DNA of 11,683 nt from contig NYZA01000182.1 in assembly GCA_002686955.1 (NCBI GenBank), positions 1 through 11,683 of the forward strand, read 5' to 3'. The stretch comes from Gemmatimonadota bacterium. GTDB lineage: Bacteria; GCA-2686955. The notes beneath the pieces were generated by a model. The model was not told where the DNA came from. It saw only the letters and a program-made list of their open reading frames with translations, and made no database searches. Both the position numbers and the translations under genes were made by a program. Each line of letters begins with the position of its first letter. Position 1 is the stretch's first letter. Positions 1 through 11,246 of this stretch are shown here, in pieces.

Positions 1-544
1 ACGGCCAGGGGTGCGGACATCGTTGCGGTCATGCTCTGCTTCTCTCTCGACAAGGTGCGTCACCTCTCGCCCTTCTACACTAATTGCGGAATGGGAAAAT
101 GTCTCACGCATGTTGGCAGAGAGGGACCGGTGGCGTCTCGATGACCCGGAGGGTAGTGTTGGTCAAGTAGAGAGCGCTCGTCTCGGGACGAGGGCTCCGG
201 GAAGACTGGGGGCTTGCTCACTTGGGGCGTGGCGCCTGCAGGCGCCGATAGCCGCGGGGCTGCATCGGAGGTTCCGCGCGCGCAGCCACGGGGTCGACTT
301 GCGTCGGCAGCGAGGACGGTTCCGAGACGATGTTCAAATCCCCCTGGGAGGAAATGGGGGAAAGGGCCTCCTTCGCCAGCGTCACCGTCCCGCATCCGGA
401 ATGCCCAATTGCCGCCTGCGCCCGGGGCGGATAGACTCCGGCGGATTCGCCCCTACGCGTGATGCCGGGCGGGGCCGCACCCGAGGGCGCGGCGCGGCGC
501 CGGACGAGGCGAAACACCGTCCACCGACAAGCCCAGGACTTTCA
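1..544. other. Long region without a convincing gene, upstream of the transporter operon
   Basis: I see no supportable gene here. Several frames stay open, but the translations are rich in Arg, Gly and Pro with no recognisable motif, as expected for shadow frames in high-GC DNA. The frame of the binding protein is open back to about position 11, but the sequence before 545 does not look like protein, while a clear signal peptide begins at 545. The stretch holds a perfect 16-bp palindrome at 231-246 and a short TCCCCC/GGGGGA hairpin at 339-361. A relatively AT-rich patch at about 73-110 might hold a promoter, but no good -35/-10 pair is visible. The 5' untranslated leader of the operon may therefore be several hundred bases. 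Confidence 0.5.
231..246. repeat. Perfect 16-bp palindrome in the operon leader
   Basis: The sequence GGCGCCTGCAGGCGCC reads the same on both strands. The symmetry stops at its edges (T at 230, G at 247). It lies about 300 bp before the binding-protein start, in a non-coding stretch, so it could be an operator for a dimeric regulator or a hairpin in the leader. Short GC-rich palindromes also arise by chance in such genomes, so function is only a possibility. Confidence 0.4.
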
Positions 545-2395
545 ATGCCTACCGCTCGCCTCGCGCAACGGCGCTTCAGTTTTCTCGGATCGATTGCAAC
601 CGCCCTGGCGTTGGCCCTCTTGTCGGGCCTGCGTCTCGACGGGACGACCGCTCGCGCGGAGGGGGGCTGGGAGGATGGCGGCAACCCCCCCTTGGTCGGC
701 GATCCGCGCGCCAGCCGGGAGGTCAAGGATCGGGCCTTGCCGATGGTCTGGCGGGCCTTTCCACCGACGCTGCGCAAGGAGGGGCCGAACTCCAACTTGG
801 TCACGATCTCGACGGTGCACCGCCTCTGCTACGAAGCGCTGATCTCGATCCATCCCGAGACCGAGGAGTTCGTTCCCTGGCTCGCGAAGGAGTGGAAGAT
901 CGAGACCAACGAAGGGGCGGGCACACAGACATTCTCGTTCCGCGTCAACCCGAAGGCTCGTTGGTCCGACGGGTCGCCGGTGACGGCCAAGGACGTCTAC
1001 TACTCGTGGTGGCACCGCGTTCAGGAGGACCGTAACGATCCGTCGAACATGATGGTCTTCGGAGAGAGCTACGAAGAGCCGGTGATCGTCGACGATCTCA
1101 CGATCAAGGTGACCACGAAGAAGCTCAACTGGCGCCTCTTCCACTACTTCGGCGGCATGCAGATCTACCCCGAGAAGTACATCCACATTCCAGGCGAAGA
1201 GTATCTGCAGCGCTACAACTGGGAGCTGATGCCCGGCTCCGGCCCTTACTCGATGAAGCCGGAGCACCTGAAGAAGGGCCAATCGCTCACCTTGACTCGA
1301 CGCGACGATTGGTGGGCCGAGGACGAGCCTCTTTCGAAGAACACCTTCAACTTTCAGAGAATCAAGTTCATCGTCATTCGGGATCAGGAGCTCGAGTACG
1401 AGAAGTTCAAGGCCGGTGAGCTCGACTACTATCGCGTGACCCGGGCGCAGCGCTGGGTCGAGGATATTCCGAAGGAGCCGCTGATCGAGAAAGGGTGGAT
1501 TCAGAAGCGGAAGATCTACAACCAGGCGCCGCACGGCTTCTCGGGCTTCTGCTTGAACATGCGCAAGCCCCCATTCGACGACCGCCGCGTTCGTCAGGCT
1601 TTCTCGCATCTTTTCAATCGCGAACGGTTGATGGAGAAGCTCTTTTTCAATGAGTACGAATTCATCGACTCATATTTTCCGGGGCGGGATTGGGGCAGCG
1701 CCGACACGAATCCGAAGATTCGATTCGATCCCGATCGGGCGGAAGAGCTGCTCTGGGAGGCCGGTTACAAGACCCGCAACGACGATGGTTATCTCGTGGG
1801 TCCGGATGGCAAGCAGTTCGAGATCGCGCTCAATTACGGCGCGCAGTCGTGGGAACGGATTTGGTTGGTGGTGCGAGAGGACTACGAAGACGCGGGTATC
1901 AAGTTCAACTTGAAGTTGATCGATCCATCGACGCTCATCAAGAAGATTGGCGAGCGACAGTTCAGTGTCGTTTTTCAGAGCTGGGGGGCGTTGCTCTTCC
2001 CGAACCCGGAGACTTCGTGGCGCTCCACGCTAGCCGACCAGCCCCACAACAACAATCTCACGGGCTTCAAGAACGAGCGCGTCGACGAGCTGTGTCGAAA
2101 GTACGATGTTACCATTGACCGGGCGGAGCAGAAGAAGATCATTCGCGAGGTGGACTCGATCGTTTTCAACGAGCACCCATACGCTCTCGCGTGGTATGGC
2201 GGCTTCTTCAGGCTCCTCTTCTGGGACCGTTTCGGCCACCCCGATCGCTACATGACGCGAATTGGTGATGTTCCGGAAGAGCAGGTTGCGTTGCTCTGGT
2301 GGTTCGACCCCGCGAAGGAGGCGGCGCTGCAAGAGGCCATGGCGGCCGACCGGCAGCTGCCTCAGAGTGAGATCGAGGTCAGGCCTTGGGACTGA
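545..2395 (+). CDS. Periplasmic peptide-binding protein, ABC transporter solute-binding family 5 (OppA/YejA-like)
   Basis: The 616-residue product is the substrate-capture subunit of the peptide importer encoded immediately downstream. The start at 545 is chosen because AGGA lies 6 bp before it and the protein begins with a signal peptide: basic n-region with R9-R10, hydrophobic core at about 13-29, and an A-R-A cleavage site ending at residue 38. Family 5 landmarks follow: the WSDGSPVTAKDV signature at 140-151, a GSGPY motif at 231-235, an FCLNMRKPPFDDRRVRQA block at 335-352 that is typical of YejA/DppA/OppA proteins, and TGFKNERVDEL near 506-516. Length fits the family (about 500-620 residues). 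The R-R-F-S-F-L stretch resembles a Tat signal but does not match the consensus, so Sec export is more likely. The ligand is inferred to be an oligopeptide; the sequence does not say which. The stop codon lies inside a hairpin with a T-tract. Confidence 0.93.
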   Translation: MPTARLAQRRFSFLGSIATALALALLSGLRLDGTTARAEGGWEDGGNPPLVGDPRASREVKDRALPMVWRAFPPTLRKEGPNSNLVTISTVHRLCYEALISIHPETEEFVPWLAKEWKIETNEGAGTQTFSFRVNPKARWSDGSPVTAKDVYYSWWHRVQEDRNDPSNMMVFGESYEEPVIVDDLTIKVTTKKLNWRLFHYFGGMQIYPEKYIHIPGEEYLQRYNWELMPGSGPYSMKPEHLKKGQSLTLTRRDDWWAEDEPLSKNTFNFQRIKFIVIRDQELEYEKFKAGELDYYRVTRAQRWVEDIPKEPLIEKGWIQKRKIYNQAPHGFSGFCLNMRKPPFDDRRVRQAFSHLFNRERLMEKLFFNEYEFIDSYFPGRDWGSADTNPKIRFDPDRAEELLWEAGYKTRNDDGYLVGPDGKQFEIALNYGAQSWERIWLVVREDYEDAGIKFNLKLIDPSTLIKKIGERQFSVVFQSWGALLFPNPETSWRSTLADQPHNNNLTGFKNERVDELCRKYDVTIDRAEQKKIIREVDSIVFNEHPYALAWYGGFFRLLFWDRFGHPDRYMTRIGDVPEEQVALLWWFDPAKEAALQEAMAADRQLPQSEIEVRPWD

Positions 2396-2411
2396 CGATC
2401 AGGCCTTTTTT
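2381..2411 (+). terminator. Intrinsic-terminator-like hairpin at the binding-protein stop codon (operon attenuator)
   Basis: AGGCCT at 2381-2386 pairs with AGGCCT at 2401-2406 across a 14-base loop and is followed directly by six T's (2406-2411). The TGA stop of the binding protein (2393-2395) lies in the loop. The stem is only 6 bp, so leaky termination is more likely than a full stop. The permease gene starts about 30 bp later on the same strand. A partial terminator here would make more binding protein than channel and ATPase, a common arrangement in ABC import operons. Confidence 0.55.
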
Positions 2412-2441
2412 CGCTCGGGCCCTTAGGATTGGAGCCATGAC

Positions 2442-3536
2442 GTGCATGGAATGACGAGCTACTTCATCCGCCGCTTGCTCCTGGTTCCACTCACATTCGC
2501 TTGCATCACATTTCTGGTCTATTCCGTCATTCGCTTGGCTCCGGGCGGCCCGATCGAGCAGGCGCAACACCAGATTCGGCAGGCGGCGATGTCGGAGGGC
2601 GGTGGGGGCGCGGCGCTCGGCACGGGGCAGGAATTCGAGCTGCCACAAGAGGCGATGGATCAGCTCAAGCGCTACTACAAGCTCGATAAGCCGATCTATC
2701 TTGGCTATCTGATCTGGTTGGGTGTCTGGCCGGACGAAACGAAGAATGGGGCGTTCAGCGGGATCGCGCAGGGAGATTTCGGGACCTCTTACCGCTACTC
2801 CGATCCTGTTCTCGATACGATTATTTCGAAGTTTCCGATATCGATCTACTTCGGTCTGATCGGCTATATCGCGACGTGGGTCGTGTGCATTCCGCTGGGC
2901 GTGAAAAAGGCGCTGGAGCATCGCTCCGCATTCGATACGGTTTCGTCGCTGGCGGTGTTCTTGGGCTACTCGATTCCGGGGTTCGTCGCCGCTCTGGCGT
3001 TGATGCTGATCTTCGCCACCGACAACTTCGGCATGCAGATCTTGCCGCTGGGCGATTTTCGGTCGGAAGGGTGGGACGAAATGTGGGCGCAGGGCGAGAT
3101 CTGGTGGTGCGTGAAGGACCAGGTCAGCCACACGATCATCCCGCTCATCGCCTACATGTTGGCGGGCTTCGCGACCATGACCATCTTGATGAAGAACAGC
3201 CTGCTCGACAATCTCGGGGCGGACTATGTGCGCACGGCCTTCGCGAAGGGGTTGAGCGAAAAGCGGGTGGTCTTCATGCACGCGCTACGCAACTCGCTCA
3301 TTCCGATCTGCGTCGGCGTGGGCCATGCGATCGGGCTGCTTTTCGCGGGCTCGTTCCTGATCGAGAAGACCTGCAACATCCCGGGAATGGGGCTGCTCGG
3401 CTTCAACTCGCTGGTGGAGCGCGACTACCCAGTGCTGATGGGGATTCTGACGATCGGCGTCATCATCCGACTGACGGGCAACATCATTTCCGACATTGTG
3501 CTGGCTCTGGTCGATCCGCGGGTTCGTTTCGGTTGA
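2442..3536 (+). CDS. yejB: Peptide ABC transporter permease, YejB/OppB type
   Basis: The 364-residue inner-membrane protein forms half of the translocation channel. It opens with a first membrane segment (about 12-30) followed by LAPGGPIEQA (32-41), a hallmark of YejB. More hydrophobic segments lie near 133-153, 167-190, 231-250, 288-306 and 332-355. The cytoplasmic coupling (EAA-type) loop is DYVRTAFAKG (261-270) followed by HALRNSLIP (280-288). Length equals the 364 residues I recall for E. coli YejB. The start is GTG at 2442, with GGAG 7 bp upstream; ATG at 2451 (MTSYFIRRLLL) is a possible start three codons later. The gene lies 46 bp after the binding protein, past the hairpin, and 14 bp before the second permease. 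Membership of the peptide permease family is certain and the Yej subfamily likely; the substrate is inferred. Confidence 0.92.
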   Translation: MHGMTSYFIRRLLLVPLTFACITFLVYSVIRLAPGGPIEQAQHQIRQAAMSEGGGGAALGTGQEFELPQEAMDQLKRYYKLDKPIYLGYLIWLGVWPDETKNGAFSGIAQGDFGTSYRYSDPVLDTIISKFPISIYFGLIGYIATWVVCIPLGVKKALEHRSAFDTVSSLAVFLGYSIPGFVAALALMLIFATDNFGMQILPLGDFRSEGWDEMWAQGEIWWCVKDQVSHTIIPLIAYMLAGFATMTILMKNSLLDNLGADYVRTAFAKGLSEKRVVFMHALRNSLIPICVGVGHAIGLLFAGSFLIEKTCNIPGMGLLGFNSLVERDYPVLMGILTIGVIIRLTGNIISDIVLALVDPRVRFG

Positions 3537-3550
3537 GAGAGGCGGCTGTC

Positions 3551-4948
3551 GTGACCTTCGTTTGGAAGACGCTCTATCTCGCCCTGGTGCTGGCCGGGGG
3601 CTATCAACTCACTACCCGGGGCATACCATGGCTCTACACGTGCTTGGGCAGGCGACTCGGCTTTTCGATGAAGATGACTCCGATCACCGAGAAGCGAGTG
3701 CTTCGATTCAAGAGCATACGAAGAGGGCATTGGTCGTTTGTCGCGATCTCTTCACTTTTCGTGACGTCGCTCTTTTTGGAGTTGATCGTCAATGAGAGAC
3801 CGCTGGTGATTCGCTTCGACGGGCGGACCGAGTTTCCGGCTCTAAGGGACTGGACGAACAAGGTCCTGTTTTTTGTAGATTTCCCGGTCTTTCTGCCGAA
3901 GAACGAGTTCGGTCAGAGCGGCGGGGGAGAGGTGGACTACGGCTTTTTCCGGCGCTCGTGCGATGACCCTTCGCTGCTCGATGAGCGGATCACGGACGCC
4001 CAAGAGAAGGCCGCCAAGGCGAGGGCGCGCTTCGAAAAGCTCGATCCGCCGGGGACCGATGATTCGGAGTTCGCGAAGTCGCGATACGAGCAGCGCAAGA
4101 TCACGCACGAGAAGCGGACACAGCAGCTCGTCGATCTTCAGCACTCGCAAGAGGTGTTCGAGGCCGGAGAGGCCGGAATCGTCCCGACGCTCTATCCATA
4201 TTCGCCGAATTCGCTTCGCCACAGCCTCGACAAGCCGCCTCCGAACAAACCCTCTCTTGGCGAGGGGATCCCGCTGGGAACCACGGTCGCCGGGCGGGAC
4301 GTGCTGGTGTTGCTCGTATACGGTTTTCGAATCTCGCTCGCCTTCGCGCTCATCGTGGCGGTTTGCGGCTACGCGGTCGGGGTGATCACGGGGGGCATCC
4401 AGGGCTACTACGGCGGCTGGGTCGATATCGGAACGCAGCGTTTCCAGGAGATCTGGGGCAGCATCCCCTTTCTCTTCACTATCATGATCATCGCGTCTTT
4501 GGTGACGCCCTCGTTCGCCGTGCTGGCCTTCCTCATGATCGTGCTCAGGAGCTGGCTAGGCATCACTTTCTATGTTCGGGGCGAGTTCTATAGAGAGAAG
4601 GCGAAGGACTATGTTCAGGCGGCGATCGGTTCCGGTGTGTCGGATTGGAAGATCATCACCAAGCACATTTTGCCGAACTCGTTGGTGCCGGTCGTGACCT
4701 TCGCGCCTTTCGGAATCGTCGCCTACATCGGAGCGCTGGTGAGCCTCGATTATCTCGGTTTCGGCCTGCCGCCGGGCACGCCGAGTTGGGGGGCTCTGCT
4801 GCGGCAGGGGCTCGAAAATGTGAGGTTCTATCCTTATCTCGTGTTCATCCCAGTCGCCGCTCTGGCTTCGACCCTCTACGGTGTCGTGATGGTCGGCGAA
4901 GCGGTGCGCGAAGCCTTCGATCCCAAAGTGTTCTCCAGGCTCAGGTAG
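3551..4948 (+). CDS. yejE: Peptide ABC transporter permease, YejE/OppC type, with extra N-terminal segment and periplasmic insertion
   Basis: This is the second channel subunit. The core matches YejE: IRRGHWSF (56-63), a membrane segment with LELIVNERPLVIRFDG (76-91), YPYSPNSL (215-222), GRDVLVLLVYGFRIS (248-262), the coupling loop VQAAIGSG (355-362) with ILPNSLVP (373-380), and VGEAVREAFDP (448-458). At 465 residues it is much longer than the roughly 340 I recall for E. coli YejE. Two parts explain this: about 40 extra residues at the N-terminus with a hydrophobic stretch (6-18), and a highly charged insertion at about 137-205, in the periplasmic loop after the first canonical membrane segment. 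GTG at 3551 is preferred because AGAGG lies 8 bp upstream. ATG at 3668 or 3674 would give a YejE-like N-terminus but has a poor ribosome site. The gene ends 8 bp before the ATPase start. Confidence 0.9.
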   Translation: MTFVWKTLYLALVLAGGYQLTTRGIPWLYTCLGRRLGFSMKMTPITEKRVLRFKSIRRGHWSFVAISSLFVTSLFLELIVNERPLVIRFDGRTEFPALRDWTNKVLFFVDFPVFLPKNEFGQSGGGEVDYGFFRRSCDDPSLLDERITDAQEKAAKARARFEKLDPPGTDDSEFAKSRYEQRKITHEKRTQQLVDLQHSQEVFEAGEAGIVPTLYPYSPNSLRHSLDKPPPNKPSLGEGIPLGTTVAGRDVLVLLVYGFRISLAFALIVAVCGYAVGVITGGIQGYYGGWVDIGTQRFQEIWGSIPFLFTIMIIASLVTPSFAVLAFLMIVLRSWLGITFYVRGEFYREKAKDYVQAAIGSGVSDWKIITKHILPNSLVPVVTFAPFGIVAYIGALVSLDYLGFGLPPGTPSWGALLRQGLENVRFYPYLVFIPVAALASTLYGVVMVGEAVREAFDPKVFSRLR

Positions 4949-4956
4949 GCAAGCAG

Positions 4957-5970
4957 ATGAGCAACGAAACGCGAAAGAAGCTGCTCGAGGTCAATGACCT
5001 CAAGACCTACTTCGATGTGGAAGGACGGACCGCGAAGGCGGTGGACGGGGTCAGCTTCCACATCTACGAAAACGAGGTATTCGGCCTCGTCGGGGAGTCG
5101 GGCAGCGGCAAGTCGGTGACATCTCTTTCAGTGATGCGGCTGATCCCGAATCCACCGGGGGACATCGTCAGCGGCGAGCTGATCTTCAAGGGGCGGAACC
5201 TGCTCGATCTCTCTTACGACGAGATGAGGAAGATCCGAGGCCACCACATTTCGATGATCTTTCAGGAGCCGATGACGGCGCTGAATCCCGTTTTCAGCAT
5301 CGGCTTTCAGCTTCTCGAAGCGATCACGCACCACGCGACCATGAGCAAGGAGGAAGCGCGCGAGCGTGCCGTGGAGATGTTGTCTCTGGTGGGCATTCCG
5401 GATGCCGCCCGGCGTCTCGACAACTACCCGCACGAGTTCAGCGGGGGGATGCGGCAACGGGCCATGATCGCCATGGCGCTCGCCATGAACCCATCACTCT
5501 TGATCGCGGACGAGCCGACCACCGCCCTCGATGTAACGATTCAGGCGCAGATTCTGGAGCTGATGCTCGATGTGCGGAAGAAGACCGGCGGCTCGTCGAT
5601 CATGCTGATCACGCACGACCTGGCGGTGGTGGCGGAGACTTGCGAGAGGGTGGCCGTGATGTACGGGGGCAAGATCCAAGAGGTGGCGGAAGTCTCTCCT
5701 CTCTTCCGGGAGCCGCTGCACCCCTACACGCGAGGGTTGATGAGCTCGCTTCCGCGGCCCGATCGGGAGCAGCAGAAACGGCTCGACACGATCCCCGGAA
5801 TCGTGCCCAGCATTTTGAATATGCCGCCGGGCTGCAAGTTCGCGGAAAGGTGTCGCGAGCGGATCGATCGCTGCGATATCGAAGAGCCGAGTCTGATCGA
5901 GGTGCGACCGGGGCGCCTCTGTCGTTGCCATCAGGTCGAGCCCGCCGCGGTGGCGAAAGGGGCTGCATGA
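4957..5970 (+). CDS. oppD: Peptide ABC transporter ATP-binding protein, OppD/DppD type
   Basis: This 337-residue cytoplasmic ATPase is one of the two that power import. Motifs in order: Walker A GESGSGKS (46-53), Q-loop Q103 in FQEPMTALNP, signature SGGMRQR (162-168), Walker B LLIADEP (181-187), D-loop ALD (190-192), and switch His H220 in THDLA. The C-terminal oligopeptide-transport domain contains HPYTRGL (255-261) and cysteines C293, C299, C306 and C324, spaced Cx5Cx6Cx17C, with an extra C322. In DppD/OppD relatives such cysteines hold a [4Fe-4S] cluster. A good AGG site lies 7 bp before the ATG. E. coli YejF is a single protein carrying both ATPase halves; here they are separate genes, as in Opp and Dpp systems. 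The last four bases overlap the next gene (ATGA), which suggests translational coupling. Confidence 0.93.
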   Translation: MSNETRKKLLEVNDLKTYFDVEGRTAKAVDGVSFHIYENEVFGLVGESGSGKSVTSLSVMRLIPNPPGDIVSGELIFKGRNLLDLSYDEMRKIRGHHISMIFQEPMTALNPVFSIGFQLLEAITHHATMSKEEARERAVEMLSLVGIPDAARRLDNYPHEFSGGMRQRAMIAMALAMNPSLLIADEPTTALDVTIQAQILELMLDVRKKTGGSSIMLITHDLAVVAETCERVAVMYGGKIQEVAEVSPLFREPLHPYTRGLMSSLPRPDREQQKRLDTIPGIVPSILNMPPGCKFAERCRERIDRCDIEEPSLIEVRPGRLCRCHQVEPAAVAKGAA

Positions 5971-6980
5971 TGGCCGCCAAGACTTCGGCGAACGGAAAGG
6001 CGCTGCTCGAGCTTCGTGGCCTCAAGGTGCACTACCCGATCCACGGGGGCATCTTCTTGCGCCGAATCGGCGAAGTGAAGGCGGTCGACGGTGTCAGCGC
6101 CGTGGTCAACGAGGGAGAGACCCTCGGTCTCGTCGGCGAATCGGGTTGCGGCAAGACGACCATCGGCAAGGCGGTTCTGCGCCTCGTTCATGCAACCGAG
6201 GGGGAGATCCGGTTCACGCGAGAGAGCGGGGAGCGGGTCGATCTCGTCGAGATGAACCGCGGCGAGATGCGACCGGTTCGCGCCGAGATCCAGATGATCT
6301 ACCAGGATCCGTACTCTTCGCTCAATCCGCGCTGGTCGGTGGGCGAGATCATCGCCGAGCCGCTGATGGTGCACCAGCCGAAGCTGTCGGTGGCGGAGCG
6401 GGATGAGAAGGTGGCCTGGCTGCTGGAAAAGGTCGGTCTGACCGGGGAGCAATCGTATCGATATCCGCACGAGTTCAGCGGGGGGCAAAGGCAGCGGGTC
6501 GGAATCGCGCGGGCTCTCTCGACCGGCCCGCGCCTGGTCGTTGCCGACGAGCCGGTCTCGGCGCTCGACGTGTCGATTCAAGCGCAGGTGATCAACCTGA
6601 TGCAGGATTTGCAGGAGGAATTCGGTCTCACCTACCTCTTCATCGCCCACGATCTGAGCGTCGTCGAGCACATCAGCCACAGGATCGCGGTGATGTATCT
6701 GGGCAATTTGGTAGAGGTGGGCTCATCGAACGAGCTCTACAACCACGCGATGCATCCCTACACCCGGGCGCTGCTGAGCGCTGTGCCGCTCCCCGATCCC
6801 GACGCGAACCGGCCCGACCGAATCGCGCTCACGGGGGAGGTCCCCAGCCCGCTCGCCAAGCCCTCCGGCTGCGCGTTCCGCACCCGCTGCCCACTGGCGA
6901 AGAGCTCCTGCGCCGATGAGATCCCGCCATTGAAAGAGGTCGGGCCGGGGCATCTGGTGGCCTGCCCGGTCGTTTCGTAG
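5967..6980 (+). CDS. oppF: Peptide ABC transporter ATP-binding protein, OppF/DppF type
   Basis: This is the partner ATPase, also 337 residues. Motifs: [18 protein letters not shown] (27-44), a typical OppF N-terminal block; Walker A GESGCGKT (57-64); Q-loop Q113 in [11 protein letters not shown]; signature [14 protein letters not shown] (171-184); Walker B LVVADEP (190-196); and switch His H228. The C-terminal domain shows [13 protein letters not shown] (262-274) and cysteines C302, C308, C315 and C333, with the same Cx5Cx6Cx17C spacing as its partner. Two start codons lie side by side: ATG 5967 overlaps the previous stop, and ATG 5970 lies 7 bp after AAAGGGG and may be the better initiator. 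This is the last gene of the operon. It ends 9 bp from a gene on the opposite strand, and I see no separate terminator between them. Confidence 0.93.
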
Positions 6981-6989
6981 AGCGCCGGC

Positions 6990-8183
6990 TCAATCCCCGA
7001 CGATCACCGACACCATTCCCCATACCACCAGGCTCCACCAGTCGTTCAACGCCTGGTTGAGTGTGCCGGTGAAGCTGACATCCTCTTCGGGCCAGTAGTA
7101 CATCCAGGCATTGCCGTAGCCGTCGTGGCCCACCAGCTCACCGATACCGCCGTCGAAGCGGATCTGGTAGATGCCGAGGCCGTAGTAGACATCGACGTCG
7201 CCCGTGAACACCCATTCCCGCATCTCTTCGAGTGTCGCGGGATCGTCGAAGAGCTCTCCCTGAAAGAGCGCGCGCGAGAACGTCTCCAGGTCGCGCGTGC
7301 TGCTCACGAGGCCTCCGCCGGCCCAGTCGGCGCTTTGGCGCATCTGCCCGTACATATCGAGCTTCCATTCGTATCGGTGGGATTCCGCGTGGGGAGAAGT
7401 GGGTTGCTCGCGGTAAGGCAGATAGGTGTCGTTCATTGCGAAGGGGCTGAAGATGAGGTCGCGATAAACGTGGTGCAGCTGACGATTCGCCACGATCTCC
7501 GCGATCATGCCTAGCAACACATATCCGGTGTCGGAGTAGTGGAAGAGCGTGCCCGGGGGCGCGATCGGGGTCAGATCCTTCGCGTACCCGATCAGGTCCT
7601 CCGGCTCCCAGAACATGTCCCAGTCGCGGTAGTACTCGATGAGAAACGCATTGAGCTCCCAAAATACGTAGGGAGGGTCGTACCAGTAGTCGGGCAGTCC
7701 GCTCGTATGGTTCAAACACTGTCGCAGGGTGATCTCCGGACCGTAGTCGTGGTCGTCGATGACGAGCAGCCCCTGGGTGATATCGGTGGGGAGGTAGGTA
7801 GAGATCGGATCGTCGAGGAAAAGCAGCCCCTCTTCCTTCAAGAGCAGAATCGTCGCCGCTGTAAAGGTCTTGCTGGTGCTCGCGATCTCGAAAGTGTCGC
7901 GAGGCTCGATCGGCACACCGCCGATGCGATCGATGTCGCCGGAGACCCCTTCGAAGAGCACGCCGTCGCTGCCCGAGCTCATCCGGAAGAGCCCGCCGCC
8001 GTAACCCCGGTTCTTGGCGATTTTGGCGTCGAGTTTGGCCTGGAGATCGATGGCGCGATCGGCGGGCTGGAGCTGGACGATGGCCTGTCGTGGAGTGGGT
8101 GGGGCGGAGGCGCGGGTGGGTTGGGCGCCTGGGCCAGGGGAGGCCAGGGCGATGGCGGTGGTGAGGGTGATTGAAATGGTCAT
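6990..8183 (-). CDS. Serine hydrolase, class C beta-lactamase / DD-peptidase fold
   Basis: The 397-residue product belongs to the beta-lactamase-related (Pfam Beta-lactamase) family, which includes DD-carboxypeptidases, AmpC enzymes and EstB-type esterases. The SxxK motif is S102-T-S-K105, with S102 the expected nucleophile. HTSGLPDY (159-166) and AGGGLVSSTRDL (288-299) are family blocks. The second active-site motif is Y216-S-D218 where many members have YxN. The third is H353-D-G355, the HxG variant of KTG. These variants are seen in non-lactamase members, so beta-lactam hydrolysis should not be assumed. The N-terminus has a short hydrophobic stretch (about 3-15) without a basic n-region, so export is uncertain. 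The start is fixed by AAGGAG (8194-8199 on this strand, 10-base spacing) and an in-frame stop two codons upstream. It converges on the transporter operon; a role with peptidoglycan-derived peptides is only a suggestion from the neighbourhood. Confidence 0.9.
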   Translation of the reverse strand: MTISITLTTAIALASPGPGAQPTRASAPPTPRQAIVQLQPADRAIDLQAKLDAKIAKNRGYGGGLFRMSSGSDGVLFEGVSGDIDRIGGVPIEPRDTFEIASTSKTFTAATILLLKEEGLLFLDDPISTYLPTDITQGLLVIDDHDYGPEITLRQCLNHTSGLPDYWYDPPYVFWELNAFLIEYYRDWDMFWEPEDLIGYAKDLTPIAPPGTLFHYSDTGYVLLGMIAEIVANRQLHHVYRDLIFSPFAMNDTYLPYREQPTSPHAESHRYEWKLDMYGQMRQSADWAGGGLVSSTRDLETFSRALFQGELFDDPATLEEMREWVFTGDVDVYYGLGIYQIRFDGGIGELVGHDGYGNAWMYYWPEEDVSFTGTLNQALNDWWSLVVWGMVSVIVGD

Positions 8184-10161: not shown

Positions 10162-10208
10162 GGGGCGGCCGTCGCTGTGCCGGCACGACCTTTGCTCAAC
10201 CGCACCCC

Positions 10209-10658
10209 ATGTTCCACCACGTCGCCCAGGCAGTGAGCGGCCGGCGCCTCTTCGCTACTTGGGAAGAAGGGCTCCGCCTGTTCGAGATCATGGTTCGGGC
10301 GGGACCGAATCCGGTTGCCCTCTGCCTGATGCCGGACCACCTACACATGGCGCACAGCGCGGACCGGCGTGCGGCGGTGGGGCGCGCGATGCGCGGCCAT
10401 GCACGGTGGAGGAATCGGTGCCGCAGCTTCGAGGGCTCTCTCTGGCGACGCCAGCTGGCGGTTCAATTCGTTCCGGCCGGGGTCAAACAACGCCGTCTCG
10501 CGCGCTATATCCACCTGAATCCTTGCCGCGCCGGGCTGATCTCCGATCCATTGGCCTGGCCGCTGTCGACCTATCGAGATGCGCTCGGTTTCAGCTTGCG
10601 GCCGGCTCGGTCGGCGGCGCAAGACCCCGAGCGCCTGCATGCCTTATGTGGCCCGTGA
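10209..10658 (+). CDS. REP-associated tyrosine transposase (RAYT, Y1_Tnp family), catalytic domain
   Basis: This 149-residue single-strand transposase-type protein has the Y1/HUH catalytic signatures: LMPDHLHMAH (40-49) with H44-x-H46, and RYIHLNPCRAGLI (99-111) followed by DPLAWPLSTYRDALG (113-127). By alignment from memory with E. coli TnpA-REP (YafM), Y100 matches its catalytic Tyr115 in YIYINP. All three key residues are therefore present. The N-terminus is slightly short: family members usually have about 12 more residues before the FHHV-like strand, and no start codon exists between the previous stop and 10209. The frame ends right after DPERLHALCGP, where longer relatives carry on into another domain; such a domain follows one frame over (10639-11052). 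RAYTs act on nearby palindromic repeats; the repeats at 11004-11193 are candidates. It lies 54 bp after the amidohydrolase gene. Confidence 0.82.
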   Translation: MFHHVAQAVSGRRLFATWEEGLRLFEIMVRAGPNPVALCLMPDHLHMAHSADRRAAVGRAMRGHARWRNRCRSFEGSLWRRQLAVQFVPAGVKQRRLARYIHLNPCRAGLISDPLAWPLSTYRDALGFSLRPARSAAQDPERLHALCGP

Positions 10659-11052
10659 CTCCCACGTGAGCTCGGACAGTGATCTTCCTCGCGGCGGTTT
10701 GCTGCCTCTCGAAAACACGCACGCGCTCGAGTCGATCGTGGCCGCAGTGAGCGAGTTGATGCGTGTTCCGGTCGAGTCGGTTGTGCAGCGGGGCGCCGCC
10801 CGCCCGCTCGCTCTCTGGACCGCGCGCGCCCACACACACGTTCCAACGAGTGGAATCGCTCGTCACTTCGGGGTGACGCGGCAGGCGGTCTACCGAGTCG
10901 CGAACGAAGCCGGCCCGCGGAGCGAGATGGTCTCGCGAATGGTGGGTGATCCGCGCTTCCCGGGGCTTCGGTGGCGCGATCCCCGCCTGGGCGGCTTCCG
11001 GGGCACACAGTGGGGGTCGAGCTTGACACCCCGAACACACAGTGGGGGGTGA
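10639..11052 (+). pseudogene. Helix-turn-helix segment in the +1 frame after the transposase, likely its displaced C-terminal domain
   Basis: From ATG 10639 this frame encodes 137 residues. The part at about 29-89 (ALESIVAAVSELMRVPVESV, then GIARHFGVTRQAVYRVANE) looks like the DnaA C-terminal-type or HTH DNA-binding domain that some longer RAYT proteins carry after the catalytic domain. It overlaps the end of the upstream frame by 20 bp, as expected if one inserted base (or a two-base loss) split an original single gene. A separate coupled polypeptide is also possible. The last 16 or so residues are encoded by the repeat element: the stop at 11050-11052 lies inside the second repeat copy, so the natural C-terminus may also have been lost. 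No good ribosome site precedes 10639. It could be a broken gene, two subunits, or a programmed shift; no slippery sequence was seen. Confidence 0.5.
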
Positions 11053-11060
11053 ACTTGTCA
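11004..11060 (+). repeat. Left arm of symmetric repeat element: two 25-bp direct copies, 32-bp period
   Basis: Two copies of a 25-bp unit lie at 11004-11028 and 11036-11060, separated by 7 bp. They agree at 21 of 25 positions by direct comparison. The shared core over all four copies in the element is close to TGGGGGTGARCTTGACA, preceded by CRCACAG. The left arm begins within the 3' end of the helix-turn-helix frame, whose stop codon is in the second copy. The units lack a strong internal hairpin of the classic REP type. Confidence 0.85.
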
Positions 11061-11136
11061 ATTCGGCGCGATGGGGACGGAAAACGGGAGTTTTGGCCTC
11101 TCCTAGTACGGCAAACCACTCTCAGACAAGGAGTTC

Positions 11137-11193
11137 TGTCAAGTTCACTCCCATCTCTGCGTGGGAGATGTCAAGCTCACCCCCAACTGTGCG
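11137..11193 (-). repeat. Right arm of symmetric repeat element: two inverted 25-bp copies, 32-bp period
   Basis: Copies at 11137-11161 and 11169-11193 read on the - strand match the left-arm unit. The first-read copy (11169-11193) agrees with the left copy at 11004-11028 in 21 of 25 positions; the other agrees with 11036-11060 in 19 of 25. The 32-bp period and 7-bp gap equal those of the left arm, so the element is an imperfect inverted repeat of two 57-bp arms (about 43 of 57 positions) around a 76-bp centre (11061-11136). I see no gene in the centre. Confidence 0.85.
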
Positions 11194-11246
11194 CTTCTTG
11201 CGGGGCGCGACCCGCGCTGCGCCGCCGCGGCCCCGGCGAAAGAAGC
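11193..11246 (-). terminator. Long hairpin just after the outer-membrane protein stop codon
   Basis: GCTTCTT (11193-11199) pairs with AAGAAGC (11240-11246), and CGGGGC (11201-11206) with GCCCCG (11230-11235), leaving a small internal loop and a GC-rich apical loop. It starts at the stop codon of the - strand gene and ends where the repeat element begins. No T-tract follows on the - strand, so it would be an atypical terminator or a 3' end stabiliser. Confidence 0.4.

Follow-up and report, generated by a model that had tools for sequence, protein, structure and literature searches.

The window analysed here (the whole 11,683-nucleotide stretch of a Gemmatimonadota contig) carries at positions 11003–11194, downstream of the relic of a RAYT gene, four copies of a 26-bp unit arranged as two direct copies, a 76-bp centre and two inverted copies, with a 32-bp period in both arms, and this repeat is probably a gene-less miniature element of the TIRYT type with doubled ends, as judged from comparison with the repeats of other genomes. 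TIRYTs are RAYT-like Y1/HUH transposases with long terminal inverted repeats and a C-terminal helix-turn-helix (HTH). Each end of the element would consist of two direct copies of the repeat recognized by the transposase, with their GGGG side out, the gene being replaced by a 76-bp stuffer. It is unusual for both ends to carry doubled and phased sites.

The features of the region are given below; the bit scores are those of a PWM built from the units of other loci, the window's own units being left out.

10209–10658, + strand: relic RAYT/TIRYT gene, catalytic part (NCBIfam NF047646; alignment with intact TIRYTs)
10618–10989, + strand: relic RAYT/TIRYT gene, C-terminal HTH-like part, in another frame (weak Pfam matches; alignment)
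11003–11028, + strand: outer left unit, GCACACAGTGGGGGTCGAGCTTGACA (30.6 bits; alignment)
11029–11034: left linker CCCCGA, 6 bp
11035–11060, + strand: inner left unit, ACACACAGTGGGGGGTGAACTTGTCA (33.4 bits)
11061–11136: centre, 76 bp, without a gene
11137–11162, − strand: inner right unit, ACGCAGAGATGGGAGTGAACTTGACA (34.7 bits)
11163–11168: right linker TCTCCC (read on the − strand), 6 bp
11169–11194, − strand: outer right unit, GCGCACAGTTGGGGGTGAGCTTGACA (36.7 bits)

The consensus of the 26-bp unit is GCGCACAGTGGGGGGTGAACTTGACA, in short form GGGGTsAaCTTGACA, with GGGG outwards and the ACA ends pointing to the centre; read from the sequence, its core GTsAAsTTGAC is a near-palindrome. The units score 30.6–36.7 bits and the next best site of the window 4.2 bits, so that coordinates and PWM scores confirm the layout that had already been recognized in a sequence-only reading of the window, namely two direct and two inverted copies around a 76-bp centre at a 32-bp period. 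Of the 25-bp unit and 7-bp gap proposed there the period stands, but a 26-bp unit with a 6-bp linker fits better. Each arm is 58 nt long, and 44 of its 58 positions are complementary to the opposite arm, as compared with 31–34 for the best comparable arm pair in the shuffled window (12 first-order Markov shuffles), and within one element the units match between arms at 17–22 of 26 positions and the linkers at 1–2 of 6. As single-stranded DNA the element folds well (z −4.7). No hairpin was found within a single unit, the folding of which is no better than that of shuffles (z = +1.5 and +1.1), in agreement with the earlier remark that the units lack the hairpin of typical REP sequences.

In the assembly of the source genome (4.28 Mb, 270 contigs, about 85% complete), searches with a degenerate unit first, and then with a sequence-only arm model (R1), yielded the copy numbers reported here, that is, about eight scattered and partly decayed loci, window included:

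Complete element: C182 (the window), C251 and C170
Element without the outer right unit: C68
Left arm and degenerate inner right unit: C134
Remnants (half-copies or single units): C108, C268 and C162

Copies with the same paired layout and period are thus found elsewhere in the genome: the layout with a 75- or 76-bp centre recurs at three loci beyond the window (two complete, one minus the outer right unit), the centre being 75 or 76 bp long in all four measurable copies and the arm period 32 bp in seven arms and 31 bp in one. The C251 and C170 copies are 81% identical over 253 bp, reaching slightly past the arms on both sides, and their centres are clearly homologous. In these two copies the linkers are kept among same-side arms (CCTGGT on one side, CTCCAC on the other) and, with C134 included, agreement amounts to 49–51 of 58 positions among same-side arms, as against 37–40 among opposite ones, so that the two ends of the element can be distinguished. 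Unit sequence and spacing are kept, and whole-arm pairing is not; arm pairing as a conserved feature is not favoured, in that same-side agreement exceeds opposite-side agreement and the linkers do not pair. The earlier observation of equal spacing with different gap sequences therefore holds between the arms of one element, but not between copies, whose same-side linkers are conserved, and the selection on spacing drawn from it is plausible, if unproved, half of the copies being without some units. At four of the eight loci at least half of the units are gone, and a fifth locus is short of one; the losses at half of the loci suggest that selection no longer acts on most of the copies.

The copies examined in their context are intergenic, with neighbouring genes of unrelated functions, and Rfam found only tRNAs at the loci searched. 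Left-flank sequence is common to C251, C170, C134 and C108; since several copies share sequence outside the arms, the outer ends of the element are not fixed by present evidence, and some of the copies may have been multiplied within a larger repeat. In C251, C170 and C108, GGTGA is seen by eye in phase, 32 bp outside the left arm; as a degenerate third unit it is too weak to be claimed.

Sequence features indicate that the gene adjoining the element is a broken RAYT homologue, the C-terminus of which is HTH-like, a trait of the TIRYT subclass. Its catalytic part contains a HUH motif (HLH in MPDHLHM) and a tyrosine region (RYIHLNP), and matches REP_Tyr_transpos (NF047646) with E = 3.4e-10 and a score of 40 bits, the cut-off being 80. 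The matches of the C-terminal part are all under the cut-off (HTH_7, 0.0077; HTH_23, 0.017; HTH_28, 0.048; Bac_DnaA_C, 0.087), and its open frame continues into the repeat, to 11052. A start-like peptide, VPARPLL, can be read at 10177 in yet another frame; the reading frame shifts near 10207 and again near 10640, the middle part is shortened, and the two ORFs together align lengthwise with long RAYTs of other genomes. Thus, the RAYT transposase of the sequence-only reading is a RAYT homologue, but a frameshifted and shortened relic, and the HTH segment attributed to it is an HTH-like C-terminus of sub-threshold similarity.

The relic is the only RAYT-like gene found in its own genome and adjoins one of the eight element loci only, so that the supposed link of the copies to RAYT genes holds at the window locus but not at the others. 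That the sole RAYT-like gene should lie 13 bp from one of eight elements by chance is, by our estimate, highly unlikely. In the window, the PWM revealed no unit above background upstream of the relic in the right orientation; a candidate at 10194–10209 has the wrong orientation and scores 3.6 bits, as expected by chance. Both arms lie downstream of the relic, the one nearest its end being oriented like an upstream repeat. Since no upstream repeat was found for the relic, the window element is regarded not as an intact TIRtron, but only as a gene-less repeat pair of the TIRYT type. The other Y1_Tnp gene of the genome (C59, L027:8623–9120) is frameshifted and of IS200 type, and overlaps the end of an ORF named from its sequence as polysaccharide-pyruvyl-transferase-like; no repeats of the window type were found near it. 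The window also contains, at 10–6980, a peptide ABC transporter operon (a binding protein, two permeases and two ATPases, as named from the ORFs).

The name TIRYT was given to RAYT-like genes with inverted repeats by Di Nocera et al. 2013 (PMC3733652), who described repeats with a common GGGGWSAS that are dispersed as single, dimeric or grouped families. HTH C-termini (Bac_DnaA_C/HTH) define the TnpA_Y1 subclass 2.1, which holds most TIRYTs and for which the target bound by the C-terminal extension is unsettled (Quentin et al., PMC6006769). In unrelated genomes, intact TIRYT genes were found to be flanked by inverted repeats GGGGTCAGnnCTTGACa with GGGG outwards, which is also the orientation at every locus with two arms in the source genome. 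Around RAYT genes of 300–320 aa in unrelated genomes the flanking repeats start with GGGGTCAG or GGGGCCGC, and overlap the stop codon or sit close by (for example, GGGGTCAGTGCTTGAC...gene...GTCAAGCACTGACCCC). In a distantly related genome, G041 (L132–L143, L152–L165), some twelve RAYT-like matches were found, together with at least 112 repeats of the GGGGTCAG type, which often form gene-less outward pairs. There, GGGGTCAGnnCTT occurs 112 times, as compared with twice for the reversed control, and the closest opposed repeat pairs, within 300 bp (those of G041 plus one in G058), are gene-less and have GGGG outward in nine of nine cases. Several G041 units read GGGGTCAGGTCTTGACATT or GGGGTCAGAGCTTGACA, to be compared with GGGGTsAaCTTGACA in the window, in which 2–4 fewer bases separate GGGG from CTTGACA. 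One TIRYT gene of G041 (L133) has a doubled repeat at its downstream end, with a period of 35, and for another (L134) the period is 26; the doubling seen there is at one end and not of the two-plus-two form.

The units of the element fit GGGGWSAS at 8/8 positions in some cases (GGGGTGAG, GGGGTCAG) and at 7/8 in most (GGGGTGAA). The likeness to TIRYTs and TIRtrons extends to the nearby RAYT-like gene with an HTH-like C-terminus, to long inverted repeats with a GGGG(A/T)(C/G)A core and GGGG outwards, and to gene-less copies dispersed singly, in pairs and in groups, as in G041. However, in the window element the repeat is double at either end, with a fixed period of 32 bp around a centre of fixed length (75/76 bp), the gene beside it is broken and does not lie between repeats, and the distance between GGGG and CTTGACA is shorter than in the G041 repeats. 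The suggestion of a different kind of RAYT-associated repeat is supported by the resemblance to the inverted repeats of TIRYTs, a RAYT kind already described, in which inverted repeats take the place of REPs.

Outside the source genome, the two-unit pattern gave a single stray match among 84,980 species genomes, on a Clostridium contig, and none in viral contigs; the exact 16-mer GGGGGTGAACTTGACA was present, among 386 genomes, only in the source genome and once elsewhere. In G001, of the same family, the arm had only weak matches (best E 0.13) with no clear copy, and the relic RAYT gene had no match. No copies of the window arm were found at distant RAYT loci, and the papers found do not mention GTGAACTTGACA.

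A second repeat family, R2, is dispersed in the source genome as arms of about 85–140 bp (GGGGACCGAGCACTGG...GCCAGGCCCGCCCAGTGGCTCCGCTCC...) that form outward-facing inverted pairs, for example at L118:5143–5448 (C166), L026:2016–2372 (C108) and L024:6034–6656 (C251), some of them near contig ends. An R2 model gave at least 127 matches at E ≤ 1, of which the majority fall below 1e-3, among 150 scored of 2,572 candidates; confident copies number at least about 110 in the 4.3-Mb genome and, since only 150 of the 2,572 candidates were scored, the family is probably commoner. Opposed R2 neighbours within 1 kb face outward in ten of ten cases, with GGGGAC near the outer end. The R2-type loci L120:800–1370 and L021:6070–6330 hold further internal repeats (GAGTTGCGGCGC..., CGCCGCTCGCCCCGCACCCGCCGA...), and a further repeat pair is shared by C251 and C108 with 83–92% identity (L024:3297–3477 and 7011–7131; L026:7445–7579).

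By taking into account that the element lies between opposed R2 arms at C251, C68 and C108 and beside one such arm at C268, and that four loci have a left flank in common, the element might be regarded as an internal part of R2 that spread with it and has no transposase of its own. We consider this improbable, in that the units are absent from most R2 loci examined and R2 arms were not found at the window, C170 and C134. R2 could, however, explain the spread of some of the copies, and the earlier proposal of a non-autonomous mobile unit, which agrees with a repeated and RAYT-associated sequence, has to be tempered by the several copies that sit between the arms of this larger family. The fixed 32-bp period, the intergenic position of the sites and the conservation of the units but not of the linkers would also be in keeping with a host regulatory or nucleoid-protein array, its four phased sites being selected for a cellular role; this is very improbable, given that unit loss at five of eight loci fits decaying copies, that the neighbouring genes have no common function and that the motif recurs elsewhere as transposase ends.

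Two phased sites per end are the same kind of anatomy as that of the ends of IS21, each of which has two direct repeats (L1/L2, R1/R2), both required for integration (PMC10122671), and IstA binds R1 and R2. Accordingly, a MITE of a DDE transposon with doubled end sites of the IS21/Mu/Tn7 kind, the transposase of which would bind two sites per end, was weighed and is held to be a poor candidate: the CA-3' ends of the units point inward, whereas DDE ends point outward, no target-site duplication was seen by eye at the arm borders, and motif and orientation fit TIRYT repeats, with a RAYT as the adjoining gene. IS21 further differs in its DDE chemistry, in the site orientation, which is reversed in the window, and in that the locus is without an IS21 gene. 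A classical REP or REPIN was rejected on the basis of units without a GTAG-type hairpin of their own. The REPIN, or GTAG REP doublet (PMC3116915), resembles the element in its two inverted repeats with a spacer of nearly fixed length, in its intergenic dispersal and in the long single-strand hairpin that can form, but the window element lacks the GTAG hairpin unit, has two units per arm and is present in few, diverged copies.

With the preferred reading, that of a gene-less TIRYT-type element, the units would be recognized by the transposase through their sequence, probably with the assistance of the HTH domain on duplex DNA, and with 32 bp, or about three turns, from one site to the next, two protomers would come to lie on the same face. 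The two ends would then meet, with the help of base pairing between the inverted arms as single-stranded DNA; cutting and joining of the strands would fall to the HUH domain, in the manner of the IS200/IS605 group. Probably, a TIRYT that has since been lost or become broken, and whose decayed relic would be the window gene, mobilized the copies in trans; these would now be immobile and for the most part decaying. No empty site for the element was demonstrated, and this is counted against the explanation, as are the presence of a RAYT-like gene at only one of eight loci, the failure to find an upstream repeat of the relic, the orientation of the arm nearest its end, the sub-threshold HTH matches, the shorter middle of the unit with its mostly 7/8 fit to GGGGWSAS, and the flanking sequence shared by several copies. 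A more far-reaching and, in our opinion, rather doubtful extension is that of a HUH/Y1 subclass in which the C-terminal HTH binds phased pairs of duplex sites at both ends, forming a Mu/IS21-like complex that acts through single-strand chemistry. To our knowledge, such a hybrid mode has been reported neither for the IS200/IS605 group nor for RAYTs.

TIRYTs make up a large share of RAYT-like genes, and PMC6006769 leaves open both the role of their inverted repeats and the target of the extra HTH domain. The two phased units at each end of the element suggest recognition of duplex sites rather than of REP hairpins, and miniature ends with phased double units may provide a concrete substrate with which the recognition of TIRYT repeats by the HTH can be addressed.
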